A DNA stretch of 64,000 nt from Vulcanimicrobiota bacterium (lineage in GTDB: Bacteria > Vulcanimicrobiota > Vulcanimicrobiia > Vulcanimicrobiales > Vulcanimicrobiaceae): positions 60,487 through 124,486 of the forward strand of contig PLTN01000126.1 of the NCBI GenBank assembly GCA_003164495.1, written 5' to 3'. The translations under genes were made by a program, and so were the position numbers. The stretch's first letter is position 1, and each line of letters opens with the position of its first letter. Below the pieces are notes generated by a model. The model saw only the letters and a program-made list of their open reading frames with translations. It searched no databases and was not told the origin of the DNA. Shown here one piece after another: positions 3,208 through 63,971 of the stretch.

Positions 3208-4203
3208 GTGCGTCGGTTGTCTATCGATCGAACTGAGCGAAAGGCGCGCTACTCCAGCCAAACCCTGGTCGTACGGCGTTCCGCTCTTGCCGTCATTGCC
3301 GGCGCTTGTACCGCGCCGCTTCTTGGACGCAGCGCGATTGGTCAAGAGCAGACGTTACGACTTGCGACCGCGCCGCTCGATGTCAGCGCCGAGCCATACT
3401 ACGCCCTGGAGATGGGCTTTTTTAAGCGTGCCGGGCTTGGCAACATTACGTTGCAAACGATCCCAACCGGGGCGGCGATGACGGCCGCCGTCGCGGGCGG
3501 CGCAATCGACATTGCAATCTCCAACATCGTATCCGTCGCGCAAGCGCATCAGCGGAACGTTCCCTTCACGCTTGTTGCACCCGCCGGGCTCTATTCGTCG
3601 AGTGCTCCGACGTCGATTCTCATGGTCGCTAAAGACTCACCCCTCCGCACCGCCACCGACCTAAACGGCAAAACGCTCGGCGCAAGCGGCCTGCGAGGCA
3701 TCGCGCAATTCGCACCAATGGCTTGGATCGATCAGCACGGAGGCTCATCGGCCACCGTCAAATTCGTCGAAATGAGCTCACCGGAGATCATCGATGCGGT
3801 TTCAGCCGGACGCGTCGACGGCGGTCTGATCATCGAACCGTTCATCGCCGAGGCGAGAAAGACCATGCGCACCTTCGCAAATGTCTTCGATGCGATTGCA
3901 CCCGCGTTCTTGATTTCGGCGCATTTCGCAAACCTCGACTGGGCGAGGGCCCACACCGATATCGTTCGGCGCTATCAGAATGCCATTCTCGAAACAGCGG
4001 CTTGGGCGAACAAGAATCGAGCGCAAACGGCGTCGATCCTGATCAAGGCCGCCAACCTTCAGGAAGACGTGGTCCGAACCATGACCCGGATTGAATACGC
4101 AAACAAAATATCGCCCGAGCTCGTCCAACCGGTCATTGATACCACAGCCAAGTATACCGGCGTACCGTCGTTCAAGGCCTCGGAAATCATTTTCTCGGCT
4201 TAA
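3208..4203 (+). CDS. ABC transporter substrate-binding protein, NMT1/SsuA-like
   Basis: A periplasmic type-2 binding protein of the NMT1/THI5-SsuA-TauA group, about 331 residues. After a basic N terminus and a signal segment (residues about 25-45, ending near S-A-I-G-Q), the mature protein has the group's hallmarks: A-E-P-Y-Y-A-x-E-M-G-F-F near residue 62, a Gly/Ala-rich G-G-A-I-D-I-A-I-S-N motif, the hinge D-L-N-G-K-T-L-G, and the C-terminal F-K-A-S-E-I-I-F shared with other binding proteins here. The GTG at 3208 sits only 1 nt after an AGAGG; the TTG at 3217 has that site about 10 nt upstream and may be the real start. No permease adjoins it; a strong terminator follows. The ligand is unknown. 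Confidence 0.85.
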   Translation: MRRLSIDRTERKARYSSQTLVVRRSALAVIAGACTAPLLGRSAIGQEQTLRLATAPLDVSAEPYYALEMGFFKRAGLGNITLQTIPTGAAMTAAVAGGAIDIAISNIVSVAQAHQRNVPFTLVAPAGLYSSSAPTSILMVAKDSPLRTATDLNGKTLGASGLRGIAQFAPMAWIDQHGGSSATVKFVEMSSPEIIDAVSAGRVDGGLIIEPFIAEARKTMRTFANVFDAIAPAFLISAHFANLDWARAHTDIVRRYQNAILETAAWANKNRAQTASILIKAANLQEDVVRTMTRIEYANKISPELVQPVIDTTAKYTGVPSFKASEIIFSA

Positions 4204-4230
4204 CAGACTCAAGCTCGGGATTGAATTCAA

Positions 4231-4278
4231 AACATCGCGACGATGCGATCTCGAAATCGTCGCGATGTTTTTGTTTTT
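4231..4278 (+). terminator. Rho-independent terminator after the 3208-4203 gene
   Basis: A perfect 14-bp stem (arms 4231-4244 and 4256-4269, beginning AACATCGCGACGAT) with an 11-nt loop is followed by a T-rich run on the + strand (TTTTTGTTTTT, 4268-4278). This is a textbook intrinsic terminator 27 nt after the stop of the binding-protein gene. The complementary A-run on the other side means it may also help end the leftward gene at 4311. Confidence 0.9.
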
Positions 4279-4310
4279 ACGCTACTTCAGCCGCCCGGCC
4301 AAAGAGACTG

Positions 4311-4968: not shown

Positions 4969-5943
4969 GTGCGCAGACCATCCGAATCCAGCGTCGGGCG
5001 ATCGACACTAAAGCGGTCGGCAGCCCTCTCATTGTTCGCCGCAAGCATTGCCGGTGTCGCACCGCTGCGTGCTCAAACCACACTCGCACCACTGAGAATC
5101 GCGACGCCCGGGGGCGACGCGTTTGCCGAGCCGTTCTTTGGCACGGACGGCGGTTTCTTTGCAAAGGCGGGCTTCGACCCGCAGATCTCCATTCTCAACA
5201 ACGCCGGCGCAGTGCTTGCCGCCGTTGCCGGGGGAGCCGTTGATATTGGGCTCGGGGACATCGTCGGGATTGCCGACGCCATTGAGAACGGCATTCCGCT
5301 GGTCGTGTTTGCCGGCGGTGGACTCTACTCAGGTAGCGATCCCACGACGGTATTCTGCGTGGATAAGAACTCGCCGCTGACGTCGGCGCAAGATCTCAAT
5401 GGCAAAACCGTGGCGGTCGTTACGCTGGTCGGTCTGGCGGCCGCGTCAACGAAGGCATGGCTATCGAACAACGGCGCAGACATCAGCACCATCAAGGTCA
5501 TCGAGATGCCGCAACAGGAAATGCGAGCTGCGCTCCAGCGTGGCACCATTGCCGCAGCGACGATCTCAGAGCCGTTCCTCAGTAATGCAAAAAACGACGT
5601 GCGCGCCTTCGGGAAACCATACGACGCGGTCGCAAACCGCTTCCTGATCTCGCAGTGGATTACCACGCGCTCTTGGCTCGCCAATAACGCTGCCGGTGCG
5701 AAGCGCATCACTGCCGCGATTTACGACACCGCGAGATGGGCGAACGCACATCACGACGCGTCACTCCCGATCCTCGTAAAGTACCTCAAAGTCGACCCGG
5801 AGCTGATGCGCGGTATTCGGCGCGTGGACTTCTCCACCGTGCTCGGGCCGACGCTGATGCAGCCGGCCATCGATGTCGGGGTCAAATACAAACTGATCCC
5901 CAAACCCCTCGATGCCGCGACCGTGATCGCCAACCCGACATAA
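4969..5943 (+). CDS. ABC transporter substrate-binding protein, NMT1/SsuA-like
   Basis: A 324-residue exported binding protein. The GTG start has a strong GGAGGG at 4957-4962, six bases upstream. The signal segment ends near P-L-R-A-Q. Family hallmarks follow: A-E-P-F-F-G-T-D-G-G-F-F-A-K-A-G-F, L-N-N-A-G-A-V-L-A-A-V-A-G-G, D-L-N-G-K-T-V-A-V and T-A-R-W-A-N-A-H-H-D. The L-N-N-A-G block is shared with the protein at 44164-45129, so these two belong to one subclade and may bind related ligands. It stands alone and is transcribed away from the Thr-rich secreted protein. No transporter subunits adjoin it. The ligand is unknown; family members bind sulfonates, nitriles, pyrimidine precursors or aromatic acids. 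Confidence 0.87.
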   Translation: MRRPSESSVGRSTLKRSAALSLFAASIAGVAPLRAQTTLAPLRIATPGGDAFAEPFFGTDGGFFAKAGFDPQISILNNAGAVLAAVAGGAVDIGLGDIVGIADAIENGIPLVVFAGGGLYSGSDPTTVFCVDKNSPLTSAQDLNGKTVAVVTLVGLAAASTKAWLSNNGADISTIKVIEMPQQEMRAALQRGTIAAATISEPFLSNAKNDVRAFGKPYDAVANRFLISQWITTRSWLANNAAGAKRITAAIYDTARWANAHHDASLPILVKYLKVDPELMRGIRRVDFSTVLGPTLMQPAIDVGVKYKLIPKPLDAATVIANPT

Positions 5944-7592: not shown

Positions 7593-7741
7593 GGAAGTAT
7601 TGTACCGCCCCGGCGCCGATCCACTAGGGACCGAGCGCGCGTGCAACGGGGACTTCCGGCTGCCATGGATTACGGATTGTTAAGGCGCGGGACGCTCGTC
7701 CCTATTGCGCACGGCTGCAGCCTCACGAGACGCCGGCCAAA

Positions 7742-7929: not shown

Positions 7930-8715
7930 CTACGGGCTTGCGGGACGCGGAAACGTGTAATACAGCCCGAAGTAGCCGATGGCGTGACTCTGACCGGCGA
8001 CGCTATGGCCGAGGCTGACGAGAATATTGAATTGGCTCGACGGGCTGATGGTGCCGCCGATGTTGTAGAACGTCGTCGCCGTTGTACCAACAGCGCTCGC
8101 TCCTTGCGTATAAATCTCGGTTCCGAGCGTCAACCCCGAGCCGAGCGATCGCTGTACGAGGAGACCGCCGAAGCCGTAGTTGCGTTGACCGGGCGCATGG
8201 TTGATTGCCGCCCCCCCGCCGGTGTCGACGGTCCACTTGCCGCCGCCGTAGCTCTTTTGAATCCATATCGGAAGCCGGTACCACGTCTGGCCATTTCCGA
8301 GATTCCGCGCCGCGTTGCCGGTCGCGACTTCGGCCATCGGAAAAAAGCCGACTTGCGGTCGACCCGCGGACTCCTGAACGAAACGATATTTGATGCCGAC
8401 CTCCGTGTCGCCGAAGCCGAATGCGTTCGGCATCCCCGGTACGGTGGCGTTCTCGAACGGCGCGACAACGTGAAATTGGAGATTGGGCAAGAAGCCCCAG
8501 TTGAACTCGACGGCCGGCCCGTCAACCGTTGAACCCGCCCCGGGCGCGTTGTCCCATTGTGAGAAAACATACGTTTCAAAGTGGCCGAGATCGACCGGCA
8601 CCGGATCGTCCGTTAGGAACGGTGGACCAGCTATCGAAGCGGCCGGCCGGAGAAAAACCAACACGACGGCTGCGATCGCAGCGAATCGTCGATATAGCCG
8701 CCGGCTAGGGTGCAT
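7930..8715 (-). CDS. Outer-membrane beta-barrel protein, phenol-degradation MetA-like
   Basis: A 261-residue exported protein. Residues 1-30 form a signal peptide. The mature part begins P-P-F-L-T-D-D-P-V-P-V-D-L-G-H, typical of the outer-membrane transporter group annotated as MetA-pathway of phenol degradation (PF13557-like). It continues with alternating amphipathic strands (F-N-W-G-F-L-P-N-L-Q-F, G-D-T-E-V-G-I-K-Y-R-F) and ends in an aromatic strand (Y-F-G-L-Y-Y-T-F-P) close to the C terminus, as outer-membrane barrels do. It supports a diderm cell. Its start overlaps the end of the upstream binding-protein gene by 11 nt, so it probably lies in one operon with that gene and the acyl-CoA-dehydrogenase-like hydroxylase: an uptake-and-oxidation set. 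Substrate unknown. Confidence 0.75.
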   Translation of the reverse strand: MHPSRRLYRRFAAIAAVVLVFLRPAASIAGPPFLTDDPVPVDLGHFETYVFSQWDNAPGAGSTVDGPAVEFNWGFLPNLQFHVVAPFENATVPGMPNAFGFGDTEVGIKYRFVQESAGRPQVGFFPMAEVATGNAARNLGNGQTWYRLPIWIQKSYGGGKWTVDTGGGAAINHAPGQRNYGFGGLLVQRSLGSGLTLGTEIYTQGASAVGTTATTFYNIGGTISPSSQFNILVSLGHSVAGQSHAIGYFGLYYTFPRPASP

Positions 8716-9652
8716 AAATCAGTTCCTGCGCGGGGAACGAGCTGAACCCGTTATATTGCGCGGTAGCGTCGATCAACGGCTGCATCAACGCCGGCGTGAG
8801 TTGATCGGTAAAGCGCACGCGGGTCATGGTAGCGATCACCGCGGGATCGATCTTGAGGTAGCCGGCGAGGATAGCCCCGCTCGCCTGCGGATTATTGTTC
8901 GCCCAGGCCGCCGTGTCGCGCATCGCGGCGGCAAAGCGATTCACGAGAAGCGCATGATCTTTTGCCCATTGCGGGGTGCTGCACCAGCCGGTCGTGATGA
9001 AGCGTTTGGCAATGCTATCGAATCCATACGCGAGGACGCGACCGTTCTTCTTGGCCTCGCCGATGAACGGCTCGGCCACCTCAGCCGCGTCGACGCGATT
9101 AGCGCCGAGCGCCGTGGCCATCGCCGAAGACGGAATTTCCACGAACTTGACCGTCGACGCATCGCCGCCGTTCTTATCCATCCACGTCCGTACGGCGGTG
9201 TGCGTAAGGCTGTTGAGGGAGATCACCGCAACGACCTTGCCGTTGAGGTCCTGCGCCTTCTGAACCGTTGAGTTTGCCGGCACCAACAGCGCCGCGTTTT
9301 GCGTCGTGAACGGAGAGCGATACTCCGTCCCCGGCGCGAGCGCGACCAGCTGCACGCCTTTGCGATGGATCGCTGCTAAGGCATCAATCGCCAGAAAGCC
9401 GATATCGATCGCGCCCGAAACCAGCGCTGCTGCAATCGCCGAGCCGCCCTGCATCGGCTCGATGTCGGCGTCGATCCCCGCCTTTGCGAAGAATCCCTTG
9501 TCCTTTGCAAAGTAGACCTCCGCGCCAGGCTCGATCGGGATCGTAGCGATGCGCACCGTCTGAGATTGCGCGTCGCCGCGCGAACCGCCAAGGCTGAGTG
9601 CCGTGCCGCCGAATATCAACGCCGACGCGTGGGCGCGAGTGATCTTCCTCAA
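8705..9652 (-). CDS. ABC transporter substrate-binding protein, NMT1/SsuA-like
   Basis: About 315 residues. The best start is a TTG at 9652: it overlaps the stop of the hydroxylase gene (TTGA, 4 nt shared), has GAAGGGA a few bases upstream and leaves a proper signal peptide (L-R-K-I-T-R followed by a hydrophobic stretch, cleavage near D-A-Q). The open frame reaches back to 9757, but those residues are Arg-rich and unlike a signal. Hallmarks: A-E-V-Y-F-A-K-D-K-G-F-F-A-K-A-G-I-D, D-L-N-G-K-V-V-A-V, A-V-R-T-W-M-D-K-N-G-G-D and the C-terminal F-P-A-Q-E-L-I-Y. It is a close paralogue of the protein at 15436-16383, which is likewise coupled to a flavin-dependent oxygenase-type gene. Ligand unknown; an aromatic compound is a reasonable guess. 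Confidence 0.87.
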   Translation of the reverse strand: MRKITRAHASALIFGGTALSLGGSRGDAQSQTVRIATIPIEPGAEVYFAKDKGFFAKAGIDADIEPMQGGSAIAAALVSGAIDIGFLAIDALAAIHRKGVQLVALAPGTEYRSPFTTQNAALLVPANSTVQKAQDLNGKVVAVISLNSLTHTAVRTWMDKNGGDASTVKFVEIPSSAMATALGANRVDAAEVAEPFIGEAKKNGRVLAYGFDSIAKRFITTGWCSTPQWAKDHALLVNRFAAAMRDTAAWANNNPQASGAILAGYLKIDPAVIATMTRVRFTDQLTPALMQPLIDATAQYNGFSSFPAQELIYAP

Positions 9653-10869
9653 TACGTTCCCTTCGGCTCGAGACCCAGCAAGTGTTGACCGGTCATCGTG
9701 CTGACCGCGTCCCAATTCAGCGCAATATGCTTCGAAACGGCGTGGATGTCGCGCCACGCGCGCTGAACGGCGTTATCGAGGTAGAGACCGCGCCCGCCCG
9801 TCGACTCGTAGAGCGCGTCCGCGGCCTGAACGGCCAGACGAACCGCAAAAGCGTGATTTCGGCGATTGCGGATGCGCATGTCGACGCTAACGCTTTCGCC
9901 GCTTCTCACCGTGGCGAGCAATTCGTTGCAATCGCGATAGAGCAGCAGTTTCGCGGCGTCGAGGCAGGCTGTCGCTTCGGCCATGCGCGATTGCACCGCA
10001 GCGTAGTCCGCAACGCGGTTCCCGGCACCACCGGCCGCACCGCGCGTGAGCTGTTTGCTAATGGAGGCCAGCGCATCGTCGATCGCCCCCTGCACTATCC
10101 CGAACCCGGGCGCGGCGAGCGCGCACGGCATGCCGGCCATGAACGAGACCTTGTAGATCGGGTTTGCGTGCGCGCGCGTGCCCGGTGCGCTCCCGGACAC
10201 CGCCTGGGGGAAGGTGAGCTTGCGGTGACCTGGGACGAACACGTCGCTGATGACGATCGTCTTGCTGCCCGTACCGCACAGGCCGCTGGCATACCAGTCG
10301 TCCTCGAGCGTGTAATCCGTCGACGGCACGAGCAGGAGGCCGCGCGTGGGCGCGGTCTCGTCCTTGCCGGGCGGGAACATCACGCCGATGACGGACCACC
10401 TCGAGTGATCGACTCCGCTTGAAAACGACCACTTGCCGGCTGGAATGCGGTATCCGCCCTTCTCCGGCTGCGCGATGCCCTGTGGTGCGTAGGAGCCGGT
10501 GATGATGCCGTCCGGATCGTCGGCCCAAACGTCGAGCTGCGCCTCGAGCGGAAAGAGTGAAAGCAGCCAGCGATGGATGATCCCGAGACCACAGAGCCAG
10601 GCGGACGAGCCGCAACCGCGTCCGACCTCCGCGAGCACGTCCATCATCGTGATGAAGTCGTACTCGAACCCGCCGAAGCGTGCCGGCGCCAGCGTCCGGA
10701 AGAACTCCGCTTCGCGAAACAGCGCGAGCGTCTCGGCCGAGATCCGACGTTGTCGTTCAGCCTCGAGTGCGCGTTCGCGCAGATACGGAACCATCGCCCG
10801 AGCGCGTGCCACGAGCTCGCCGGGCTCAACCCTCGGGCGTGCGGGCGTAATCGGGATTGCGTTACTCAC
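9649..10869 (-). CDS. Acyl-CoA dehydrogenase-like flavin monooxygenase (HsaA/HpaB-group)
   Basis: About 406 residues from a GTG at 10869, with GGAGG just upstream (reverse of 10873-10880); the frame extends to 11019, but that leader is Arg-rich. The protein has the acyl-CoA dehydrogenase fold as used by two-component flavin hydroxylases: an N-terminal helical domain with F-R-T-L-A-P-A-R-F-G-G-F, the A-E-V-G-R-G-C-G-S-S-A-W motif, a middle beta-domain (G-K-W-S-F-S-S-G) and a C-terminal helical domain ending W-R-D-I-H-A-V-S-K-H-I-A-L-N. Relatives such as HsaA and 4-hydroxyphenylacetate or indole hydroxylases use FADH2 from a partner reductase to hydroxylate aromatics. No reductase gene is adjacent. 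It is first in a three-gene leftward operon with a binding protein and an outer-membrane barrel. Confidence 0.8.
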   Translation of the reverse strand: MSNAIPITPARPRVEPGELVARARAMVPYLRERALEAERQRRISAETLALFREAEFFRTLAPARFGGFEYDFITMMDVLAEVGRGCGSSAWLCGLGIIHRWLLSLFPLEAQLDVWADDPDGIITGSYAPQGIAQPEKGGYRIPAGKWSFSSGVDHSRWSVIGVMFPPGKDETAPTRGLLLVPSTDYTLEDDWYASGLCGTGSKTIVISDVFVPGHRKLTFPQAVSGSAPGTRAHANPIYKVSFMAGMPCALAAPGFGIVQGAIDDALASISKQLTRGAAGGAGNRVADYAAVQSRMAEATACLDAAKLLLYRDCNELLATVRSGESVSVDMRIRNRRNHAFAVRLAVQAADALYESTGGRGLYLDNAVQRAWRDIHAVSKHIALNWDAVSTMTGQHLLGLEPKGTY

Positions 10870-10994: not shown

Positions 10995-12095
10995 GTGTGG
11001 CGTAACCTAAAGGTAACACGGTTTCTGGGCATGGCGCTGCTCATCACGCTGGCCGCCCTTCGGCCGGTGATGGGCCAGAATACGCCCTCGGCTTACGTGG
11101 AGCCGGCGAACCGTGCTGCGCTGGTTTCCGCTGCGGCGAAGGAAGGGACGTTGACGCTCGGGGCCGGCGAGACGTTCGGCGGACTCGCGGGCGCCCAGCT
11201 CATTCAGCAGCATATCGAACAGACGTATCACATCAAGTTCGAAATCCGCTATTCGCCGGTCGGCGGCGGCGGCGCATTCTTACGGCAAGTGGCGCAAGAA
11301 GTTCGCGCCGGCCAGACGGCGAGTTCGGACATCCTCTTCACGGCGAACGATCGATCTTTGCCGCCGGTTATGCAGCGCGTCGATTGGCACAAATACGTCT
11401 CCGATTTACCGGATGCAGCGGTGGTGTACGATCGGCGCGCCGTCAAGCTGATGACCGAGCTCGTCGGCTTCTCCTATAACACGAAGCTGATCGCGCCGAA
11501 CGACGTCCCTCATTCGTACGCCGACTTGTTGAAACCGCAATGGAAAGGCAAGATCGCGACGTCACCCTATCAGGGAACGTTCATGGCCTTTCTCGGTCTT
11601 TCGAACGCCTTCGGTCCGCCGCGGATGCTCGACTTCGTCAAGCGCTTCAACGGGCAGATCGACGGGATCATGACCTGCGGCGACATCGACCGCGTCGTCT
11701 CCGGCGAGTTCCTGATTTTCGGTCTCGACTGCGGCGATCACGAGGTGCGCTTGCGCCAACGCAAAGGCGAACCGATCGCTTCGATCTATCCGCGGGAAGC
11801 GACCGAAGTGAACTACATTTCGCCGGGAATCCCGCTCACCGCCGCACACCCAGCTGCGGCACGATTGTTTATCACCTATCTCCTCACGCCCGAAGGCCAG
11901 AATGACCTCTGGGAGCTCACCGGTCAGGACAGCGACCTCATGCGCGGCTCGCATATGGCGAAGGTAATCGCAGATTTGCGTCGAGCACATGTGAATATCA
12001 TGACGGGTCCTCAAGGTACCGGCCTCGACGAGCGGTACCCGCAGTTCGCGGACTTCGAGCGGGAGATCACCGCGATCATCATGCAAGGGCACTAG
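10995..12095 (+). CDS. Extracellular solute-binding protein, family 1 (Fe3+-type)
   Basis: A 366-residue exported protein with a signal segment (F-L-G-M-A-L-L-I-T-L-A, cleavage near V-M-G-Q). The layout fits the AfuA/FutA-type family 1 binding proteins: A-A-K-E-G-T-L-T-L near residue 50, I-R-Y-S-P-V-G-G-G, D-I-L-F-T-A-N-D-R, the loop V-G-F-S-Y-N-T-K-L-I-A-P with P-x-S-Y-A-D-L-L-K-P-Q-W-K-G-K, and a C-terminal T-Y-L-L-T-P-E-G-Q-N motif. Family members bind ferric iron, thiamine, polyamines, 2-aminoethylphosphonate or sulfonates; the Tyr pair typical of Fe3+ binding is not obvious, so an organic ligand is possible. No permease or ATPase adjoins; it is followed 7 nt later by chrA. Confidence 0.8.
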   Translation: MWRNLKVTRFLGMALLITLAALRPVMGQNTPSAYVEPANRAALVSAAAKEGTLTLGAGETFGGLAGAQLIQQHIEQTYHIKFEIRYSPVGGGGAFLRQVAQEVRAGQTASSDILFTANDRSLPPVMQRVDWHKYVSDLPDAAVVYDRRAVKLMTELVGFSYNTKLIAPNDVPHSYADLLKPQWKGKIATSPYQGTFMAFLGLSNAFGPPRMLDFVKRFNGQIDGIMTCGDIDRVVSGEFLIFGLDCGDHEVRLRQRKGEPIASIYPREATEVNYISPGIPLTAAHPAAARLFITYLLTPEGQNDLWELTGQDSDLMRGSHMAKVIADLRRAHVNIMTGPQGTGLDERYPQFADFEREITAIIMQGH

Positions 12096-28786: not shown

Positions 28787-28790
28787 GAAG

Positions 28791-42806: not shown

Positions 42807-42862
42807 GGCGGCTTGGGCGCAGCCCAAACGCGACGGATTCACCGTAGGTGAATCCACCACTA
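42807..42862 (-). repeat. Two-hairpin dispersed repeat, copy 2 (compensatory variant)
   Basis: On the minus strand it begins with the TAG stop of the binding-protein gene at 42860. The first hairpin has arms GGATTCACC and GGTGAATCC: compared with the other copies, the loop-closing G-C pair is changed to C-G on both arms, which keeps the 9-bp stem intact. The second hairpin (TTGGGC/GCCCAA) is unchanged. This paired change argues that the stem is maintained as structure. Confidence 0.88.
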
Positions 42863-55289: not shown

Positions 55290-56456
55290 CTACACGCCGC
55301 CCCAAACGCGCGTGGCGATGTCGACGAGATGCTGCAATTTGGCCCGCTGTTGATCGGCACTCACCGGGTTGCCGCCGACGGAACTGGCAAAGCCGCACTG
55401 CGGACACAGCGCGAGCTGGTCGATCGGTGCGAAACGCGACGCCTCATCGATTCGCCGCACGACGTCATCGGCGTTCTCGAGCACGGGCGTCTTGCTCGAA
55501 ACGAGACCGAGCGCTGCAACCTTCCCTTTCGGGAGAAAACGCAGCGGTTCGAAACCGCCGGCCCGCGAGGTGTCGTACTCGAGGAAGTATCCGTCGACGT
55601 CGATCGCGTTGAAGAGCACCTCCGCTACCGGGTCGTAGGCGCCCTCAGCGGCCCAGTTCCCTTCCCGGTTTCCGCGGCATTGGTGCAGCGTGAACGTGAC
55701 GCCGTCCGGACGTCCGGCCAGCACCGCGTTGATCTTCGCCGCGTAGGTCTGCAGCAGTTGATCCGGATCGTCGCCCCAGGTGCGCACGTAGTCGCGATGC
55801 ACGGGATCGCACAGAAACGGCAAGCTCGTGTCGTCGAACTGGATGTAGGTGGCGCCGGCCGCGACGAGCGCTGCCACTTCCTGGCGATACGCCTCCACGA
55901 GATCGTCCCACACTTCGGCCATGCCGGAATAGGCACTCTTCGCGACGTTCGATGGATCGCCGATGTAGTAATGGACGTTGTTGATCGCCGGCAGCGTCAC
56001 TTTGGGCACCGCCTTCGCGTGCGCTTTGAGAAACTCGAACGCGCGCACGGTGGAGCTCGGGCGCCAGCGAATCTTGCCGGTGACCTTCAGCTGCGAGAAG
56101 CCCTGAGTCGGGCCGTCTTTGTTGCGCCACGGAATCTTGGTGTTGCCGGTGCGGTCGGCTTCGAAGCCTTCCCAGCCGAGGATCAGCTCGAGCCACCAGC
56201 TGCGACGGCGCAGCTCGCCGTCGGTAACGGCGCGCAGGCCGACCCCTTCCTGCATCGCGATGAGATCGAGCACGCACTGATCTTCCACCGCGCGCAGTTC
56301 GGCCGAATCGTGCGGGCCGAGGTTCGAGAGCGGCGTTTGCGGACCGAGGTAGCGGTCGCGCGCAACCTTCAGGGCGTCGGGCCGCAGCAAGCTGCCGACG
56401 TGGTCGGCGCGGAAGGGCGGTTTGGTGCGGCGTGAAGCGGTGATCGTCGAAGACAT
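55290..56456 (-). CDS. MetE C-terminal-like (cobalamin-independent methionine synthase family) protein
   Basis: A 388-residue TIM-barrel protein from the ATG at 56456. It resembles the stand-alone YxjG/YxjH branch of the vitamin B12-independent methionine synthase family: R-A-D-H-V-G-S-L-L-R-P near the N terminus, L-R-A-V-T-D-G-E-L-R-R near residue 78, Y-I-Q-F-D-D-T-S-L-P near 205, F-T-L-H-Q-C-R-G-N near 250 (the zinc-type H-x-C), and L-A-L-C-P-Q-C-G-F-A near 355 (second zinc Cys). The zinc ligands H, C and C are thus present, so methyl transfer to a thiol is plausible. It shares an operon with a binding protein, and a second family member lies at 61297-62700 next to a Rieske oxygenase. Confidence 0.85.
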   Translation of the reverse strand: MSSTITASRRTKPPFRADHVGSLLRPDALKVARDRYLGPQTPLSNLGPHDSAELRAVEDQCVLDLIAMQEGVGLRAVTDGELRRRSWWLELILGWEGFEADRTGNTKIPWRNKDGPTQGFSQLKVTGKIRWRPSSTVRAFEFLKAHAKAVPKVTLPAINNVHYYIGDPSNVAKSAYSGMAEVWDDLVEAYRQEVAALVAAGATYIQFDDTSLPFLCDPVHRDYVRTWGDDPDQLLQTYAAKINAVLAGRPDGVTFTLHQCRGNREGNWAAEGAYDPVAEVLFNAIDVDGYFLEYDTSRAGGFEPLRFLPKGKVAALGLVSSKTPVLENADDVVRRIDEASRFAPIDQLALCPQCGFASSVGGNPVSADQQRAKLQHLVDIATRVWGGV

Positions 56457-56495
56457 GCGCGCGCCGTTCGCCCGCCATGGACTCGACGCCTCGGC

Positions 56496-57017
56496 ATGGA
56501 ACCCTCGAACGACACGATGCGCATCAAACTCTTCGGTACCGGCCCCATCTATGATGAAACCCTTGCGATCTGCCGCAGCCGCGGCCACGCGATCGTCGAG
56601 GAACGCCCCTACGAACTGATCGTGCTGGCCAACGTCACGCGCATTCTGAAAGCGCCGGAAATCGCCGAGGCGGGGCTCGGCGTGTTGTGCTTCCACCCGA
56701 GCTTGCTGCCGCGCCACCGCGGCGGGGACGCGGTGTACTGGACCTTCAAGATGGGCGACACCGAGACCGGCGTGACCTGGTTCTGGGTTGACGAGGGGAT
56801 CGACACGGGCCCGATCGCAATCGCCGGTGCGGTGCCGATTCCGGCCGAGAGCTCGCCCGCGAAACTGTACTTCGAAACGCTCGTGCCGCTGGGGGCGCGC
56901 TTATTCGACGAGTTGCTCGCGCAGCTGGAACGCGGCGAACGCCCGAGTCGCGTGCAAGACGAATCCCAGGCCACCTACGAACCGCTGCGGCCGCCGAAAC
57001 CGAAGCCGGCCGTCTAG
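56496..57017 (+). CDS. Formyltransferase-family protein with altered catalytic Asn
   Basis: A 173-residue protein (ATG 56496; a second Met at 56517 fits the family start better). It has the tetrahydrofolate-dependent formyltransferase core: F-H-P-S-L-L-P-R-H-R-G-G near residue 67, G-D-T-E-T-G-V-T-W-F near 87 and D-E-G-I-D-T-G-P-I near 99. In Fmt, PurN and ArnA the catalytic triad is N-x-H...D. Here His and Asp are kept, but the Asn two residues before His is Cys (L-C-F-H). It is also short, lacking the C-terminal domain of Fmt. It may transfer formyl to an amino sugar or other amine, or act differently. It is divergent from the MetE-like gene and ends inside a two-hairpin repeat. Confidence 0.78.
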   Translation: MEPSNDTMRIKLFGTGPIYDETLAICRSRGHAIVEERPYELIVLANVTRILKAPEIAEAGLGVLCFHPSLLPRHRGGDAVYWTFKMGDTETGVTWFWVDEGIDTGPIAIAGAVPIPAESSPAKLYFETLVPLGARLFDELLAQLERGERPSRVQDESQATYEPLRPPKPKPAV

Positions 57018-57070: not shown

Positions 57071-58012
57071 TCAGCCCTGCCAGATCAGGTCTGAGGCCGA
57101 GACGGGATCCATTCCGCCGTATTTGACGGCCAGATCGATCACGGGCTGGATCTCCGCCGGCGTGACCTTTCCCTCGCCGTACGTCGTGCGCACCATCTTG
57201 GCGGCGACCTCCGGCGTGATCTTGGTGTACTTCAAAATGATCTGCTGCGTATCAGCATGGTTCGCGTTGGCCCACTTGGCGATTTTCAGCATCGCGGTTT
57301 GCAGACGGCGTGCCGTATCCGCGTGCGCTTGCAGCCAGGCCGGCGTTGCAAACCAGCACGTCGCGACGTAATGGCGGCCGACGCTCTGCGATGCGTTGCC
57401 GATGATCCGGCCCTGTCCGAGCGCCAGCGCCTGCGTCGTGAACGGCTCCGCGAGAATGGCCGCCGACACGCGCCCGCTCTCGACCGCGACGCCCATTTCG
57501 GGGAACGGGATTTCGATCAGCTTGACGGTCTTGACGTCGCCGCCGTTCTGATCGATCCAGGCTTGCATCTCGTATTGCGTCAGATCGCGTAAGCCGTTGA
57601 CGGCGACCGTCGTATTGTTGAGATCCGCTCCGGTTTTCGCGGTCGAGTTCTTTCCGACCACGATCACGTTGGTCAGCGCCGGGCCGCCGGCTTCGAAGGC
57701 CGGTGCGATCACGCGAAATTCGAGCCCGCGCAGATGCGCTTGCGCCAGCGGAATGACGCTGCCGTAACCGATCTCGAGCGCACCGCCGGCAACGGCCGAT
57801 GCGAGCGAAGCGGTGTTGTTCATGACCGTGATCTTGACGTCGAGGCCGGCGTCTTTGAAAAACCCGTGGTCCGTCCCGTAAAACGGCTCGGCCGAGCCGT
57901 CGGCCCCCATCGTGCCCAATTGCAACGGCAGCGGATCGGCAGCGCGCGCAATGCGGGGGAATCCGAGCGCGCTCGCGGCGGCAAGTGCGGAGAGCGTCGT
58001 ACGGCGATTCAT
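57071..58012 (-). CDS. ABC transporter substrate-binding protein, NMT1/SsuA-like
   Basis: A 313-residue exported protein from the ATG at 58012; the frame extends to 58090 but without a signal-like start. The signal ends R-I-A-R-A-A. Hallmarks: A-E-P-F-Y-G-T-D-H-G-F-F-K-D-A-G-L-D, G-G-A-L-E-I-G-Y-G-S, D-L-N-N-T-T-V-A-V (the usual N-G-K is N-N-T), A-W-I-D-Q-N-G-G-D and V-S-A-S-D-L-I-W at the end. It is transcribed alone between two rightward genes, divergent from the LivJ-like gene at 58116, and shares the 103-base intergenic region with it. Confidence 0.88.
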   Translation of the reverse strand: MNRRTTLSALAAASALGFPRIARAADPLPLQLGTMGADGSAEPFYGTDHGFFKDAGLDVKITVMNNTASLASAVAGGALEIGYGSVIPLAQAHLRGLEFRVIAPAFEAGGPALTNVIVVGKNSTAKTGADLNNTTVAVNGLRDLTQYEMQAWIDQNGGDVKTVKLIEIPFPEMGVAVESGRVSAAILAEPFTTQALALGQGRIIGNASQSVGRHYVATCWFATPAWLQAHADTARRLQTAMLKIAKWANANHADTQQIILKYTKITPEVAAKMVRTTYGEGKVTPAEIQPVIDLAVKYGGMDPVSASDLIWQG

Positions 58013-58115
58013 AACGGCCACTCGGCGCTTTTGGGGGAAATCTCCTCCGGCCTCGACGGATTCGCGCCGAAAGTCCATTGACGGCTTCATACCGGTTGCC
58101 TACGCTGGGCGTCCA

Positions 58116-59306
58116 ATGAAAGCTAGACTCTTGCCGGCCTTCGCGCTGCTTCTCGCGCTGGTCGTATCGCTTGCGGTTCGGGGTTCCGCTCAAACGGCCG
58201 GCGCGCCCTACGAACTCAACGCGATTCTTCCGTTGACGGGGCCGTTCGCATTCTTCGGTCAGGCGTCGCAGAAAACGATGACGCTGGTCCAAGACCGCGT
58301 CAACAAAACGGGCGGCATCCATGGCCGGCCGGTGCACGTCGTGTTCCTCGACGATCAATCGAGCCCGCAGCAATCGGTTCAGTTCGCCAACCAGCTCATC
58401 GCAAAGAAAGTGCCGGTGATGCTGGGGCCGGCCGTCACCGCCACCTGCGGCGCCGTCGCCCCGCTGGTCGCCGCGAACGGGCCGCTGATGTTCTGCATCT
58501 CGCCGTACATCAATACCGGCGGTTACGTCTACGCGACCGCGGGCACCGCGCTCGACAACGCCGTCGTCGTGCTGCGCTACTACCGCGAACGCGGCTTCAA
58601 GCGCTTTGCGATGCTGAACTCGACCGATGCGAGCGGTGCGGCCCTCGACAAGGCATTCATTGACGCGTTCGCGCTGCACGAGAACACCGGCTTGAGCCTC
58701 GTCTCGCACGAGTATTTCAACCCGACCGACCAAAGCGTGGCCGCGCAGATGGCGCAGATCAAGGCCGCATCGCCGCAAGTGCTGATCTCGTGGACGGTGG
58801 GCAGCCCGTTCTCCACGGTGGTGCGCGGCTTCCACGATAGCGGCCTCGACATTCCGCTCGTCACCAACGGCGCGAACATGACGATCGCCCAGATCCAGCA
58901 GCTCGCCAGCATCGCACCGAAGGAACTGCACTTCCTCACCATCCCGGCCGCGGTCAAAGGTTCGGCCGTTCCGCCGCGCATCGCGAAGGTGGAGCACGAT
59001 TTCGACACGCTCTTCGAGGAAAACGGGCTCAAGCCCGACGGCGGTTACGCGAACGCCTACGACATGACGATCCTCGTCATGGACGCGCTGCGCAAGGTGC
59101 CGCCCGATCCGACCGCCGCGCAATTGCACGCCTACTTCTCGCACTTACACGATTGGCCGGGCGCCAACGCGATCTACGACTTCCGTTTCGGCGAACGCGG
59201 GTCGGGTCAGGACGGCTTCGAGCTCGCGCGCTTCAACGCGGCCGCGAGCGATTTCGAGCCGATCAGCAAACCCGGTGGCGCACCCCTGAGGATTCACGTT
59301 CCGTGA
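58116..59306 (+). CDS. LivJ-like substrate-binding protein
   Basis: A 396-residue exported protein from the ATG at 58116. Signal residues 1-26 (cleavage near S-A-Q). Motifs: L-N-A-I-L-P-L-T-G-P-F-A-F-F-G, G-G-I-H-G-R-P-V-H-V-V-F-L-D-D-Q-S-S-P-Q, T-D-Q-S-V-A-A-Q-M-A-Q-I-K and N-G-A-N-M-T-I-A-Q. It belongs to the subfamily with 21236 and 37853, whose other members adjoin Rieske oxygenases; here the nearest Rieske gene is at 60273 on the other strand. Its last residues I-H-V-P and its TGA stop come from a copy of the two-hairpin repeat, so the C terminus has probably been altered by that element. Confidence 0.9.
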   Translation: MKARLLPAFALLLALVVSLAVRGSAQTAGAPYELNAILPLTGPFAFFGQASQKTMTLVQDRVNKTGGIHGRPVHVVFLDDQSSPQQSVQFANQLIAKKVPVMLGPAVTATCGAVAPLVAANGPLMFCISPYINTGGYVYATAGTALDNAVVVLRYYRERGFKRFAMLNSTDASGAALDKAFIDAFALHENTGLSLVSHEYFNPTDQSVAAQMAQIKAASPQVLISWTVGSPFSTVVRGFHDSGLDIPLVTNGANMTIAQIQQLASIAPKELHFLTIPAAVKGSAVPPRIAKVEHDFDTLFEENGLKPDGGYANAYDMTILVMDALRKVPPDPTAAQLHAYFSHLHDWPGANAIYDFRFGERGSGQDGFELARFNAAASDFEPISKPGGAPLRIHVP

Positions 59307-59343: not shown

Positions 59344-60276
59344 TTAGGAAGCGGCGGGGGTCCAGAACAGGTCGGACGCCGACGTGGCCTTGTCGATGAG
59401 CTTGTACTTGAAGGCGAGGTCGAGTAACGGCTGCGCATAGCGCGTCTCGAGCGATGTGGCGAAGGTGTTGCGCACGAACGAGCGCACCTTCTGCACGTCG
59501 AGCTTGGTGAGCTGCGCCGCGATCACGGCCGAATCGCTCTGGTGCGCGTTCGCCCAGCGCGCGGTCGTATACATCGCTGCCGTGAATGCTTTCGCCGCAG
59601 CGACGTTGGCGTTGAGCCAGCTGCGCTTCGCGAACCACACCCCGGTGTAGAAGTTCTTCGCCACGTAATCGTACGGATTGACGATGCGGCGAATGTCGTT
59701 CTTCGCGTCGGTCAAGAACGGCTCACCGTTGAGCGCCGCGGCAACGCGGCCCGAAGCCAACGCCGGACCCATTTCCGGAAACAGCATCTCGAAGAACTTG
59801 ACCTTCGAGAGATCGGCCCCGCCGTGAATCAGCCACTCGGAGATTGCGATCCCGCCGGTCGACTTCAAGTTGGGAACGGCGATGATCTGGCCTTCGAAAT
59901 CCTTGGCCGTCTTGAGCGGGCTGTCTTTCCGCACGCAGAGCGAGATCGTCGGCAACTTGGAGTCGTAGATCGCGCCCGCCGCAAGCACCCCGACGTCGAC
60001 CCCGCGATTGTAGGCGTTCGCCAGCTGCGTGAGATCGGTATTGCCGGTATCGAGCGCACCGCCGAGAACCGCCGCCATGATCGTCGAACCGTTAGCCAGC
60101 GCCTGCACGTCAGCCGCGATACCGGCGTTCGCGAAGAATCCCCGATCGACGCCGTAGTACGGTTCGAGAAACGGATCGCTGAGCGAGGTACCTATTCGCA
60201 CGGGCGCAAGCGTTTGCGCGCCCAGCGGCGCGGCGCTCGCGGCGGCCAGCAGCGCCAGGGCTGCGGCACGCTTCAC
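59344..60276 (-). CDS. ABC transporter substrate-binding protein coupled to a Rieske oxygenase
   Basis: A 310-residue exported protein; the GTG at 60276 shares GTGA with the Rieske stop. Signal K-R-A-A-A-L-A-L-L-A-A-A-S-A ending near L-G-A-Q. Hallmarks: L-E-P-Y-Y-G-V-D-R-G-F-F-A-N-A-G-I, G-G-A-L-D-T-G-N-T-D, D-F-E-G-Q-I-I-A-V (Q in place of the usual K), T-A-R-W-A-N-A-H-Q-S-D and T-S-A-S-D-L-F-W near the end. Last gene of a three-gene operon: MetE-like, Rieske oxygenase, binding protein. Ligand probably the oxygenase substrate (inference). Confidence 0.88.
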   Translation of the reverse strand: MKRAAALALLAAASAAPLGAQTLAPVRIGTSLSDPFLEPYYGVDRGFFANAGIAADVQALANGSTIMAAVLGGALDTGNTDLTQLANAYNRGVDVGVLAAGAIYDSKLPTISLCVRKDSPLKTAKDFEGQIIAVPNLKSTGGIAISEWLIHGGADLSKVKFFEMLFPEMGPALASGRVAAALNGEPFLTDAKNDIRRIVNPYDYVAKNFYTGVWFAKRSWLNANVAAAKAFTAAMYTTARWANAHQSDSAVIAAQLTKLDVQKVRSFVRNTFATSLETRYAQPLLDLAFKYKLIDKATSASDLFWTPAAS

Positions 60277-61538
60277 GCGCGCACTTCCGCGTTCCAGAAC
60301 CCGTGCACGTCGCGGCTCTTCGGAACGAACTGCTCGATCACGACCAGACCGTCGTAGGGGTCGGGCTGCGGCGCGCGCTGCACGGCCAGCGGATCGCGTC
60401 CCGCTTCCACGTCGTCGATCGCGCGCAGCAGCATCCGCCGCAGCAGCGTCACGCCGCGATCGGTCGCCCCCAGATGTTCTTGCGAGCGATCGAAGATCGG
60501 ACCCATGCTCTCGGTGGCGAGGCGATCGTGATCGTTGAACACGGTGCCGATGCCGGTGAACGTTTTGGTGCGCTGTTCGTTGCTGTCTAGCAGGTAACGG
60601 TTGTGCAAGTTGCGTTCGAGCGGCTCGCCGGGCGCATGTGGAAAGATGCGCGCCATGTAGTCCCGGTCGACGGGACCGTCGAGCCGCACCGCCATCTCGT
60701 ACTTCCAATGCGTCACGTCGTCGGCCGGAACGTGCCAGTGCATGCGATAGTGCGTGTTCCGCCCGAGCTTCTCGACCTTGGGATCGACCGGCGGCCCCGC
60801 CGCAAACGCCGAATTATTGGGCATGACGAAGTTCGTCACGCGCACGTAGCGCTGGTCGTCGCCGGCATCCCGCAACGCGTAAATCCGGAAGCCGAAGCCG
60901 GCCTCCTCGACGAGAATCTCCGGGGCCGGATCCTTGGCGGTGAACGTCGTGGTGTCGCGCACGGCATCGGGCGCGACGTTGAGGAAACGGTGCAGAAACG
61001 AGAGGTGCTGCGGATCGACGTCGCCTTCGAGGCCCTGCAGGTAGTTGCACTCCTGAATGATGCGCGTCGCCCAAACCTGTTCGGCCGGCAGATCGAAGAA
61101 TGGTAACGTCGGGAAATCCGGCGGCGCACCGGGCCCCATATAGGTGAGGATCAGTCCGTTTTTCTCAACGCACGGATAGGCTTTCTGGCGCACGCGCGCG
61201 CGGAACGTGCTCTCGGCGGGTTCGCCGGGTTGTTCCAACACCGTGCCGTCACGCGCGAAGAGCCAGCCGTGGTACACGCAACGCAGTCCGCCGTCTTCAC
61301 AGCGGCCGAAGCTGAGATCGACGCCGCGGTGCGGGCAGGTGCGGCCGAGCAGTCCCGGCTGGCCGTCGTCGTCGCGAAAGAGCACCAGATCTTCGCCCAT
61401 GAGTTTGGTTGGGATCGGTGCGAACGGCCGCAGCTCGCTCGAGAGCGCAACGGGTTGCCAGTAGCGGCGCAGCAAGTCGCCGCACGGCGTGCCGGGACCG
61501 GTGAGCGTGAGCCGTTCGTTCTCTTTCGGCGTGAGCAT
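60273..61538 (-). CDS. Rieske oxygenase, single-subunit demethylase/dioxygenase type
   Basis: A 421-residue enzyme from the ATG at 61538, which has GGAGG upstream. Rieske ligands C68-x-H70 and C87-x-x-H90 (C-V-Y-H-G-W-L-F). The iron site is E-G-D-V-D-P-Q-H-L-S-F-L-H near residue 173, again D-x-x-H-x4-H. It is of the same broad group as the protein at 36534 (phthalate dioxygenase/O-demethylase), and the two share the R-R-F/Y-W-Q-P-V-A beginning. The upstream gene overlaps its 5' end by about 240 nt in another frame (see 61297-62700). The pairing with a methyltransferase-family gene suggests demethylation of a methoxylated or N-methylated aromatic, but no direct proof is visible. Confidence 0.92.
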   Translation of the reverse strand: MLTPKENERLTLTGPGTPCGDLLRRYWQPVALSSELRPFAPIPTKLMGEDLVLFRDDDGQPGLLGRTCPHRGVDLSFGRCEDGGLRCVYHGWLFARDGTVLEQPGEPAESTFRARVRQKAYPCVEKNGLILTYMGPGAPPDFPTLPFFDLPAEQVWATRIIQECNYLQGLEGDVDPQHLSFLHRFLNVAPDAVRDTTTFTAKDPAPEILVEEAGFGFRIYALRDAGDDQRYVRVTNFVMPNNSAFAAGPPVDPKVEKLGRNTHYRMHWHVPADDVTHWKYEMAVRLDGPVDRDYMARIFPHAPGEPLERNLHNRYLLDSNEQRTKTFTGIGTVFNDHDRLATESMGPIFDRSQEHLGATDRGVTLLRRMLLRAIDDVEAGRDPLAVQRAPQPDPYDGLVVIEQFVPKSRDVHGFWNAEVRA

Positions 61539-62700
61539 TACGCCTCCAGAGGGCGCTGGTCGCCAATTTCGCGCCGTCTCGCATCGACTCGAATTTCGCC
61601 CAGCAGATGTTTTCATGACCCACGCGGGGGCCGATACCGCAATCCGTGCCCGCCATGACGTTCTCCTTGCCGACGAGGTTCGCGTAGCGCTCGAGCCGCT
61701 CCGCGACCAGGCGTGGATTTTCGATGAAGTTCGTGCAGTGACCGACCACGCCCGGAATGAGCATCGCGCCGTCGGGGATCTTCACGTCTTTGAAGACGCT
61801 CCACTCGTGTTCGTGCGCCGGGTTCGAGGCCTCGATCGAATAGCGGCCGGCCTTCACGCTGAAGATGATATCGGCGATGTGTTCGAGCGGGATGTCGAAC
61901 TTGTGCGGGCCGTGAAAGCTGCCCCAGCAGCAGTGCAGCGTCACTTTCTCGCGCGGGATGTCGCGCAGCGCGTGGTTGAGCACCGCGACGCGCAGCTTGG
62001 CGTAGTCGCGGTATTCCGCGACGGTCATGTCGGGGTACATCTGCCAGGCATCCGGTAAGTCCGGATTATCCACGTGCAGGTCGAAGCCGGCCGCGACGAT
62101 CGCGTTGTATTCGACCCGCATGCACTCGGCGATCGCATAGAGGAACGCTTCTTCGTCCGGGTAGTGCTCGTTGCTCAGCCAGTGCTCGATCGTCCCGGGC
62201 GTGTTGGCGTTGAGAAACGCGCCCGCCACGTCGACGCCCTCGAGCGCCGCGCGGAAATTGGCCAGATCCTCATCGAGCGCCGCCTGGCCGACGTAGCGCA
62301 GCTCTTGATTGCACACCAGGTGCAAGCGCGGGCTGCGATTGCGGAAGCCGCCGCCGACCTGTTTGAAGTACTCCGCGAACTCCATCTCGTCGCGCGCCGA
62401 AATGCTGTGCTGCGTGCGGTATTCGCCGGGCGTCCGCTCGCGATGCTCGAAGCCCGAGACGCGCTCGCGCACGTAGTTGGTGAAGTTGGTCTTGCCCAGT
62501 TCGCCGTCGTTGACCACGTCGATGCCGCAGGCGATTTGCTTCTTCACGACGGCGGCCACGTCGCGCCGGAGCATTGCGGAGAGCGCTGCCGCATCGTACG
62601 GCTTGCCGTCGGCACGGGCAAAGATCAGATCGCGCAGCTCCTCCGAGCGCGGGAGCGCGCCGGCATGCGTGACGAGGATCCGGTCGGGATTACGCTTCAT
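61297..62700 (-). CDS. MetE C-terminal-like (cobalamin-independent methionine synthase family) protein, frameshifted tail
   Basis: The frame encodes 467 residues, but only about the first 386 look like the family: T-H-A-G-A-L-P-R-S-E near the N terminus, G-I-D-V-V-N-D-G-E-L-G-K near 60, V-T-L-H-C-C-W-G-S near 250 (zinc H-x-C), A-G-T-D-C-G-I-G near 353 (zinc Cys) and the usual end L-A-T-S-A-L-W. Past that Trp the frame runs as Arg/Ala-rich sequence through the start of the Rieske gene. One base more near 61545 would bring a TAA at the Rieske ATG (TAATG), the coupling style seen elsewhere here, so a 1-nt deletion (or sequencing error) is likely. The core enzyme may still work. Confidence 0.82.
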   Translation of the reverse strand: MKRNPDRILVTHAGALPRSEELRDLIFARADGKPYDAAALSAMLRRDVAAVVKKQIACGIDVVNDGELGKTNFTNYVRERVSGFEHRERTPGEYRTQHSISARDEMEFAEYFKQVGGGFRNRSPRLHLVCNQELRYVGQAALDEDLANFRAALEGVDVAGAFLNANTPGTIEHWLSNEHYPDEEAFLYAIAECMRVEYNAIVAAGFDLHVDNPDLPDAWQMYPDMTVAEYRDYAKLRVAVLNHALRDIPREKVTLHCCWGSFHGPHKFDIPLEHIADIIFSVKAGRYSIEASNPAHEHEWSVFKDVKIPDGAMLIPGVVGHCTNFIENPRLVAERLERYANLVGKENVMAGTDCGIGPRVGHENICWAKFESMRDGAKLATSALWRRNAHAERERTAHAHRSRHAVRRLAAPLLATRCALERAAAVRTDPNQTHGRRSGALSRRRRPAGTARPHLPAPRRRSQLRPL

Positions 62701-62783
62701 GAGCGGAGCGCTTCGCCGGGGGTACGCGGGAGTCCACTAGCGCGTCGTGAAGGGGCCCGTACCGCCCCTTCGAGGATGCTTCG

Positions 62784-63971
62784 ATGAGTCGACGTTCTAT
62801 CACGCTAGCGCTCGTGGTTTCGGTCATCGCCGTTACGAGCGTCGCCGGCGGCAGGGCCGGCGCCGATCAACCGCCGCTCAAAATCGGCTTCATCACGAGC
62901 TACTCCGGCTCGACCGCCGCCGCATCGCGCGTCGCCGATGCGGCCATCAACGCCTGGATCGCGCAGCACGGCGATACGGTTGCCGGACGCAAAGTTGTCG
63001 TCATCCGGCGCGACGATACCGGGCCGCAACCCGAAGTGGCCCGGCGCCAAGCGCAAGAGCTCGTCGTGGGCGACAAGGTCGATTTCCTCGCCGGCATCAT
63101 CTTCTCACCGAACGCGGTTGCGGTCGGGCAAGTGTCGGCTCAATCCAAGACGCCGTTCCTCGTGATGAACGCGACGCAGTCGAAGATCACCCACGGTGAC
63201 CCCTACATGGCGCGCTTCAGCTTGACGCTGCCGCAACTGAGCGCACCGCTCGCCCGCTGGGCGCTGCAGAACGGCCTCAAGTCGGTGTTCGCGATCTACC
63301 TCGACTATGCGCCCGGCATCGACGCCGCAACCGGTTTCGAACAAGCGTTCACCGCCGGCGGCGGCACGCTGGCCGGTGAAGTGAAGGTGCCGTTGCAAAA
63401 TCCCGATTTCTCGGGTTACGTGCAACGGATCAAAGACGCGAAGCCGCAGGCCGTGTTCGCGTTCGTCAACGCCAACGGCGGCGGGCAGCCGTTTCTCAAG
63501 GCATTCTACGATGCCGGCCTCGCGCAAGCGGGCGTGAAGATCCTCGCTACCCCCGATCTCGTGCTGGAGAGCTTTCTGCCGACCTACGGCGACATGGCCG
63601 ACGGGATCATCAGCACCGGAAACTATTCGGCCAATCACGCCTCGAAACTCAACGATGCGTTCGTGAAGGAGGTGCTGAAACAAGACAAGGGTGAGGCGCC
63701 GCCCGATTACAACAGCGTCGCCATCTATGACATCATGCACGCGATCTACAACGTTACCGCAGCGCAAAAGGGCAGCCTCGATCCGGACCGCACGATGCAG
63801 CTCCTCGGCGGAATGAGCTTCGAGAGCCCCCGCGGCCCGCTCGAGATCGGCAAAGACTCGCGCGACATCGTGCAGACCGTCTACATCCGCCGCACCGAAA
63901 AGCGCAACGGTCAGTACGTCAACGTCGAGATCGCCTCATACCCTCACGCGACCGACCCACTCGACCGCTAG
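62784..63971 (+). CDS. LivJ-like (amide-type) substrate-binding protein
   Basis: A 395-residue exported protein; signal L-A-L-V-V-S-V-I-A-V-T-S-V-A-G-G, cleavage near A-G-A-D. Motifs: I-G-F-I-T-S-Y-S-G-S-T-A-A-A-S, V-A-G-R-K-V-V-V-I-R-R-D-D-T-G near 66, D-F-L-A-G-I-I-F-S-P-N-A near 105, and N-P-D-F-S-G-Y-V-Q-R-I-K-D-A near 208, characteristic of Peripla_BP_6 proteins. It is a different subfamily from those at 21236, 37853 and 58116. Divergent from the MetE-like/Rieske operon (83 bases between starts). Its TAG stop begins a copy of the two-hairpin repeat. Confidence 0.9.
   Translation: MSRRSITLALVVSVIAVTSVAGGRAGADQPPLKIGFITSYSGSTAAASRVADAAINAWIAQHGDTVAGRKVVVIRRDDTGPQPEVARRQAQELVVGDKVDFLAGIIFSPNAVAVGQVSAQSKTPFLVMNATQSKITHGDPYMARFSLTLPQLSAPLARWALQNGLKSVFAIYLDYAPGIDAATGFEQAFTAGGGTLAGEVKVPLQNPDFSGYVQRIKDAKPQAVFAFVNANGGGQPFLKAFYDAGLAQAGVKILATPDLVLESFLPTYGDMADGIISTGNYSANHASKLNDAFVKEVLKQDKGEAPPDYNSVAIYDIMHAIYNVTAAQKGSLDPDRTMQLLGGMSFESPRGPLEIGKDSRDIVQTVYIRRTEKRNGQYVNVEIASYPHATDPLDR

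Follow-up and report, generated by a model that had tools for sequence, protein, structure and literature searches.

An expanded, permease-free clade of NMT1-type binding proteins in a Vulcanimicrobiota bacterium and a candidate importer that may serve it

A large clade of binding proteins

The 64,000-nucleotide window analysed here, C217:60487-124486 in the metagenome-assembled genome (MAG) of a Vulcanimicrobiota bacterium (G000), contains 22 genes for solute-binding proteins (SBPs) and only two sets of translocators. Pfam scans assigned 15 of the SBPs to NMT1 (PF09084/PF13379), five to the LivJ-like Peripla_BP_6 family (PF13458), one to SBP_bac_6 (Fe-type) and one to NMT1_3 (TAXI-like), and placed beside them a single TauC-TauC-ATPase (TauBC-type) set and a single Liv-type set, bearing out each of the counts proposed in a first-pass annotation of the same DNA. 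All 15 NMT1 proteins scored 48.6 to 127.3 bits against PF09084 (cut-off 20.5), and none of the window SBPs matched the TctC family, which indicates that they are not Bug/TctC members. Eleven of the 15 fall within one clade of NMT1 proteins (the main clade) whose genes are expanded across the genome and lie apart from permease genes; the argument developed below is that this clade may be served by one importer operon located outside the window.

The excess of SBPs over translocators goes well past what chance would give, and it also holds for the genome as a whole. G000 (5.37 Mb in 245 contigs, 84% complete, with 7.2% estimated contamination) yielded 368 first-look NMT1 candidates, 150 of which were scored and all exceeded 79 bits, and 105 Peripla_BP_6 matches, a few of them fragments of one protein, corresponding to about 100 proteins. 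The membrane side amounts to 70 BPD_transp_1 and 25 BPD_transp_2 domains. From the candidate count, we estimate the NMT1 total at roughly 300 to 370. For analysis at the gene level, 1125 genes were called on nine G000 contigs (1.16 Mb), and 145 of these encode NMT1 proteins, 36 LivJ-like proteins and 50 Rieske proteins with the CXH...CXXH motif, alongside about 12 TauC-type sets; because the contigs were chosen partly for their richness in hits, NMT1 density in them is above the genome average. Only 10 of the 145 NMT1 genes lie in a permease operon, so that, on these contigs, dedicated permeases for each SBP, the arrangement that would have spoken against shared ones, were not what we found.

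Among 60 related genomes, a congener (G001; 93% complete, 7% contamination) alone shares the expansion, with 218 NMT1 candidates versus 0 to 22 in other genera of the family. Rieske oxygenases are likewise expanded, with 150 (G000) and 121 (G001) first-look candidates versus 1 to 20 in relatives. The expansion of NMT1 SBPs is therefore a genus-level event that has left more than 100 paralogues in one genome, a lineage-specific pattern of the Bug type. It did not proceed mainly by tandem duplication, as the genes mostly stand alone or in small groups, with 172 singletons, 21 pairs and 6 longer runs. As a separate observation on the family, type II reaction-centre genes are present in six of its genomes.

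In a tree of 218 NMT1 proteins sampled from G000 and G001, together with 25 outgroup proteins from relatives, 161 of the 218 formed a clade free of outgroup sequences, with support of 90 that rose to 99 once sister-genus members were added. No member of this clade (0/161) is linked to a TauC-permease operon, compared with 16 of the 57 other proteins (Fisher 8e-11), and a split made independently of the tree, by residue signature, gave the same result (0/159 versus 16/59 permease-linked within two genes). The signature consists of E167 (100% of the clade versus 15% of other NMT1 proteins), W152 (93 versus 4%), R181 (83 versus 5%), N248 (93 versus 5%) and Q287-P288 (88 versus about 11%), in a group whose mean pairwise identity is 33.5%. 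An AlphaFold2 model of the clade member encoded at 54342-55286 (pLDDT 93.1) has the two-lobed SBP fold, with SsuA (TM-score 0.76) and TauA (0.74) as best PDB matches; E167 probably terminates a second-lobe strand, at a site that in proteins of this fold generally points into the cleft. It is a possible pocket residue, and R181, N248 and Q287-P288 may be involved in docking. A simple heuristic classed 68% of the clade proteins as signal-peptide-like, compared with 1% of Rieske proteins. We do not extend the argument to the LivJ-like proteins, since no large, well-supported permease-free LivJ clade was recovered (19 of 65 proteins, support 48).

A candidate importer for the clade

The clade profile and the candidate hub permease described here were each searched over 99 genomes of the family. 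Beyond G000 and G001, the clade was found in four genomes, as a single copy in each, all belonging to one sister genus (g9; four of its 11 genomes), and approximately 3.9 kb of sequence was read around each of these receptor genes. G113 and G117 both have the genes in the order TauC-ATPase-SBP, and in G112 the hub permease gene lies 2.8 kb upstream of the clade receptor on the same strand. The G113 and G117 TauC and ATPase proteins have their orthologues (support 99 and 100) in one operon each of G000 (C166:80889-83328) and G001 (C80:246881), which lies outside the window and is composed of two TauC genes and an ATPase gene without any SBP gene. Four other genomes each have one orthologue of its permease (59 to 91% identity), and the clade is present in all five genomes with the permease (p 8e-8, ignoring relatedness). 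Between G000 and G001 the hub proteins share 91.0 to 91.5% identity, more than 91% of the reciprocal best hits do, for which the median is 76%.

The receptors encoded beside this permease in the sister genus bear the clade signature residues, whereas an NMT1 protein of G029 that is linked to a different permease has few of them. The G112 receptor groups as sister with G001_50 (65% identity), and the protein encoded upstream of it has 74% identity to the FAA hydrolase G001_49, such that a receptor/FAA-hydrolase couplet of the same kind lies near the hub in G112 and has no permease in its operon in G001. Orthology, linkage and co-occurrence in sister genomes together tie one single-copy permease to the receptor clade. 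The TauBC set within the window was rejected as the shared importer, because its two NMT1 proteins (26652 and 30755) fall outside the clade. The first-pass proposal that interchangeable SBPs share a few permeases is thus supported and sharpened to one TauC-type importer, although not to the set that lies among them in the window.

Two observations concern neighbouring genes. A 307-aa propeller-like protein is encoded ahead of the hub permease in both G000 and G001 (68% identical), and the G001 homologue has no Pfam match. On G001 contig C37, just upstream of a different TauC gene (gC37:34562), a pair of NMT1 fragments (73 and 115 aa) resembles a decayed receptor gene.

These data suggest that a single importer operon lacking its own SBP serves a few hundred receptors that arose by a genus-level SBP explosion, a reading to which we assign a probability of about 0.6. 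An ancestral ABC importer with TauC-type permeases, one ATPase and one NMT1-type SBP would have lost its one-to-one arrangement when a few hundred rounds of copying and relocation took the SBP gene to new sites, often next to a different gene for aromatic or oxidative catabolism, while its binding pocket diverged and the permease/ATPase operon remained single-copy, to become the present SBP-less hub. Each receptor would catch one class of compound and use surface residues that the receptors have in common to dock on the hub, after which the enzyme transcribed with it would degrade the imported compound. The fuller version, in which a constant ABC translocator works with some 250 interchangeable SBPs, many coupled to their own catabolic enzyme, and nutrients are added by copying a receptor beside a new enzyme, we consider an even bet.

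Enzyme partners and other features of the window

The named partner enzymes are present as the first-pass annotation had listed them: FAD_binding_3, acyl-CoA-dehydrogenase-type, VOC, three Rieske, DyP, RibD_C with a deaminase, Meth_synt_2-like, M24 and, weakly, Haem_oxygenas_2 proteins, their genes separated from the SBP genes by -4 to +14 nt (Table 1). The least secure assignments are the haem-oxygenase-like (E 2e-5) and MetE-like (E about 1e-8) proteins. The accompanying claim that most SBPs are wired to catabolic enzyme genes goes somewhat too far: couplets exist, but genes are closely spaced as a rule in this compact genome (mean directon 2.0 genes), 59 of the 161 main-clade members have no tight co-oriented neighbour, and adjacency of SBP and Rieske genes is mildly above shuffled expectation (14 versus 7.9, z 2.2). 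Pfam comparison with control operon genes, which are housekeeping-like, gave 12 versus 5 for Rieske and 8 versus 2 for LigXa_C, and the MarR, luciferase-type, M24, VOC, LigB and comparable families were also richer beside SBPs. A strong enrichment of Rieske genes next to SBPs, which we had considered, was rejected on these figures.

Where couplets occur, they are conserved between the two expanded genomes. For clade receptors matched between G000 and G001 at an identity of at least 70%, 11 of 13 have a partner within two genes in common (background 3.5 to 4.4%); the window's trio of VOC, SBP and FAD-monooxygenase genes (14255-17088), with counterparts at 79 to 81% in G001, is an example of such conservation. 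Loss of the pairs in relatives, which would have counted against the first-pass reading, is therefore not what is seen. Within genomes, by contrast, none of 140 pairs of paralogues at 45 to 55% identity has a common partner within two genes, and the expectation that clades would track the partner's enzyme family failed among paralogues. Because orthologues keep their partners and paralogues do not, new copies were apparently coupled to new enzymes and then kept. Our guess, from the enzyme families, is that the ligands are phenolic or lignin-like. Elsewhere, an NMT1 receptor gene lies upstream of, and is coupled to, a gene for a DUF5996 protein (L031:10231-11142); since this pair is kept in G001 (88% and 74%), DUF5996 may act on a small-molecule substrate.

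Three further features of the window stand apart from the couplets. The interval 51107-54244, amid the SBP cluster, encodes a 1045-aa Reg_prop/Y_Y_Y beta-propeller sensor fused to a GGDEF (diguanylate cyclase) domain, with a G001 homologue 67% identical. The Fe-type SBP gene is followed, after 7 nt, by a gene of the chromate transporter family (12103-13317), and open reading frames at 1723-3021, 6837-7646 and 7930-8715 look coding and have no Pfam match.

Table 1. Binding-protein, transporter and enzyme genes of the window (window coordinates; main clade, permease-free NMT1 clade)
Feature	Position	Strand	Evidence
NMT1 SBP, main (orphan) clade	3208..4203	+	PF09084 2.3e-21
NMT1 SBP, main clade	4969..5943	+	PF09084 2.3e-18
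NMT1 SBP, main clade; start possibly 9556	8705..9757	-	PF09084 7.3e-26
Acyl-CoA-dehydrogenase-type hydroxylase, adjoins SBP 8705..9757	9649..10794	-	PF08028 2.1e-29
Fe-type SBP (SBP_bac_6)	10995..12095	+	PF13343 3e-12
FAD monooxygenase, partner of SBP 15436-16383; pair kept in G001, 81%/81%	14255..15439	-	PF01494
NMT1 SBP, main clade; 4-nt overlap with FAD monooxygenase gene	15436..16383	-	Pfam, tree
NMT1 SBP, main clade; 4-nt overlap with VOC gene 18026-18835	17085..18029	-	Pfam, tree
VOC-fold protein, partner of SBP 17085-18029	18026..18835	-	PF00903 3.9e-16
NMT1 SBP, main clade	18847..19830	-	PF09084 8.6e-19
TAXI/NMT1_3-like SBP, 469 aa	19827..21236	-	PF16868 7.8e-11
LivJ-like SBP, abuts Rieske oxygenase beta-subunit gene	21236..22411	-	PF13458 1.1e-40
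Rieske oxygenase beta and alpha subunits	22412..24213	-	PF00866, PF00355
Two TauC-type permeases and ATPase, with SBP 26652-27641; not the candidate hub	24278..26642	-	PF00528 x2, PF00005
NMT1 SBP, permease-linked, outside main clade	26652..27641	-	Pfam, tree
Two M24 peptidase-family proteins	27638..29921	-	PF00557
NMT1 SBP, TauBC-set directon, outside main clade	30755..31765	-	Pfam, tree
Haem-oxygenase-like protein (weak), adjoins SBP 30755..31765	31768..32490	-	PF14518 2e-05, below cut-off
Deaminase and RibD_C-type reductase pair	33585..34659	-	PF00383, PF01872
NMT1 SBP, main clade	34661..35572	-	Pfam, tree
Rieske oxygenase	36534..37856	+	PF00355 2.5e-14
LivJ-like SBP, 4-nt overlap with Rieske gene 36534..37856	37853..39022	+	PF13458 2.9e-39
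Liv-type ATPases and permeases	39478..42801	-	PF00005, PF12399, PF02653 x2
LivJ-like SBP belonging to Liv set	42860..44149	-	PF13458 2.5e-68
NMT1 SBP, main clade	44164..45129	-	Pfam, tree
NMT1 SBP, outside main clade, without permease	46271..47266	-	Pfam, tree
DyP-type peroxidase	47906..48820	+	PF20628 1.6e-44
NMT1 SBP, outside main clade, overlaps DyP gene	48817..49839	+	Pfam, tree
NMT1 SBP, main clade; modelled (pLDDT 93); 78% identity to G001 counterpart	54342..55286	-	Pfam, tree, model
MetE-like (Meth_synt_2) protein, adjoins SBP 54342..55286	55290..56696	-	PF01717 3.6e-08
NMT1 SBP, main clade; 78% identity to G001 counterpart	57071..58078	-	Pfam, tree
LivJ-like SBP	58116..59306	+	PF13458 3.5e-42
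NMT1 SBP, main clade, overlaps Rieske gene 60273..61538	59344..60276	-	Pfam, tree
Rieske oxygenase with LigXa-type C-terminal domain	60273..61538	-	PF19301 1.5e-25, PF00355 6.8e-18
LivJ-like SBP; 89% identity to G001 counterpart	62784..63971	+	PF13458 5e-58

Competing explanations and precedents

Several points weigh against a single hub. Because the genomes are MAGs of the completeness and contamination given above, unseen permeases may exist. A few hundred receptors per importer far exceeds the five of DppBCDF, the characterised case that we found. Co-occurrence of hub and clade is weak within the sister genus alone (p 0.02), although linkage strengthens it, and no hub permease was found in G114 (74% complete), which has a clade member. 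Sister-genus receptors are nested at three places inside the clade, so that one must assume either that the diversification is older and was followed by losses or that genes passed from one genus to another. Finally, G000 contains other TauC operons without an SBP (C77:201927 and C217:130306) that could also serve the clade. Together with C37:74502, these are among several such operons in the approximately 12 TauC-type sets of the 1.16 Mb sample, and a pool of them, with the hub operon as one among others, could serve the receptors. We regard such a pool as unlikely, since orthology, linkage and co-occurrence in sister genomes connect the clade with one set alone, with the phyletic profile computed for the hub permease only.

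The receptors could instead be mainly sensors or periplasmic buffers that signal to regulators or hold substrate, apart from import, a role that the first-pass annotation had suggested for some of them as periplasmic sensors and that gained no positive support here. Most receptors are without permeases, MarR-type regulators make up 6 of 113 SBP neighbours and fall outside the control's 25 commonest families, and there is a precedent in Bordetella BctC for TctC proteins, as cited in PMC5994714. However, MarR proteins are cytoplasmic and cannot directly read a periplasmic receptor, the 25 commonest SBP-neighbour families include no histidine-kinase, GGDEF or chemoreceptor family, and the clade members found as single copies in the sister genus belong to importer operons, all of which makes this role quite improbable. 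We consider it more doubtful still that the window and its surroundings represent ordinary catabolic clusters of a versatile aromatic degrader, whose SBPs use any TauC-type set at hand with no special hub; the parallel Rieske expansion and the mild SBP-enzyme adjacency would fit such an organism, but the complete absence of permease linkage in the clade, compared with 16 of 57 other NMT1 proteins, and the conserved SBP-less operon would be left unexplained. Pooling of unrelated transporter-rich bacteria during assembly or binning, to which the contamination estimate and the 245 contigs of G000 lend some colour, is scarcely credible and was rejected through G001, a separate genome that has the expansion, the clade and the conserved pairs too; in addition, GC content is uniform (63.5 to 64.9%) across the nine sampled contigs and the receptors are close mutual relatives, the nearest NMT1 paralogue typically being 47% identical (median).

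The closest precedents are the TctC expansions, and the protein family, the phylum and the identified candidate hub are what is new here. Rhodoplanes sp. Z2-YC6860 has 434 TctC genes (6.2% of its coding sequences); as far as the authors of that study knew, no more abundant gene family had by then been described in a prokaryotic genome, and sharing or sensing was proposed for them without a hub being identified (PMC5994714). Like the TctC/Bug proteins of Rhodoplanes, Bordetella and Cupriavidus (PMC5994714), the NMT1 receptors are lineage-specific, present in hundreds of copies, mostly orphan, scattered and provided with few membrane partners; the former are TTT receptors, whereas the latter are NMT1/SsuA-like ABC receptors in another phylum, with a single-copy SBP-less importer that can be tied to the orphan clade. 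In P. aeruginosa, one ABC importer, DppBCDF, works with several separately specialised SBPs, DppA1-A5 (PMC4206461), and the arrangement proposed here would likewise have one importer for several receptors, except that these would number two to three hundred, as estimated from the sampled fractions, many beside different enzyme genes. SsuA, TauA and other NMT1 receptors share the fold of the modelled clade protein and differ in that the clade signature is largely absent from the other NMT1 proteins of these genomes and the clade genes have no adjoining permease. No paper on a comparable NMT1 expansion was found in the literature searched, which reached few subscription journals.

Since the description of the Bug family, it has been an open question what role orphan SBPs play. 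With an SBP-less importer tied to a receptor clade, the idea of a shared permease becomes directly testable, by stimulation of the ATPase of one transporter by many receptors. The NMT1 density on the hit-rich contigs (145 of 1125 genes) is of the same order as the Rhodoplanes record, in a phylum for which no cultivated representative was reported before 2022. If the hub reading is true, permease counts would understate the range of substrates that such an organism can take up, and the adjacent enzyme would hint at the ligand of each receptor.

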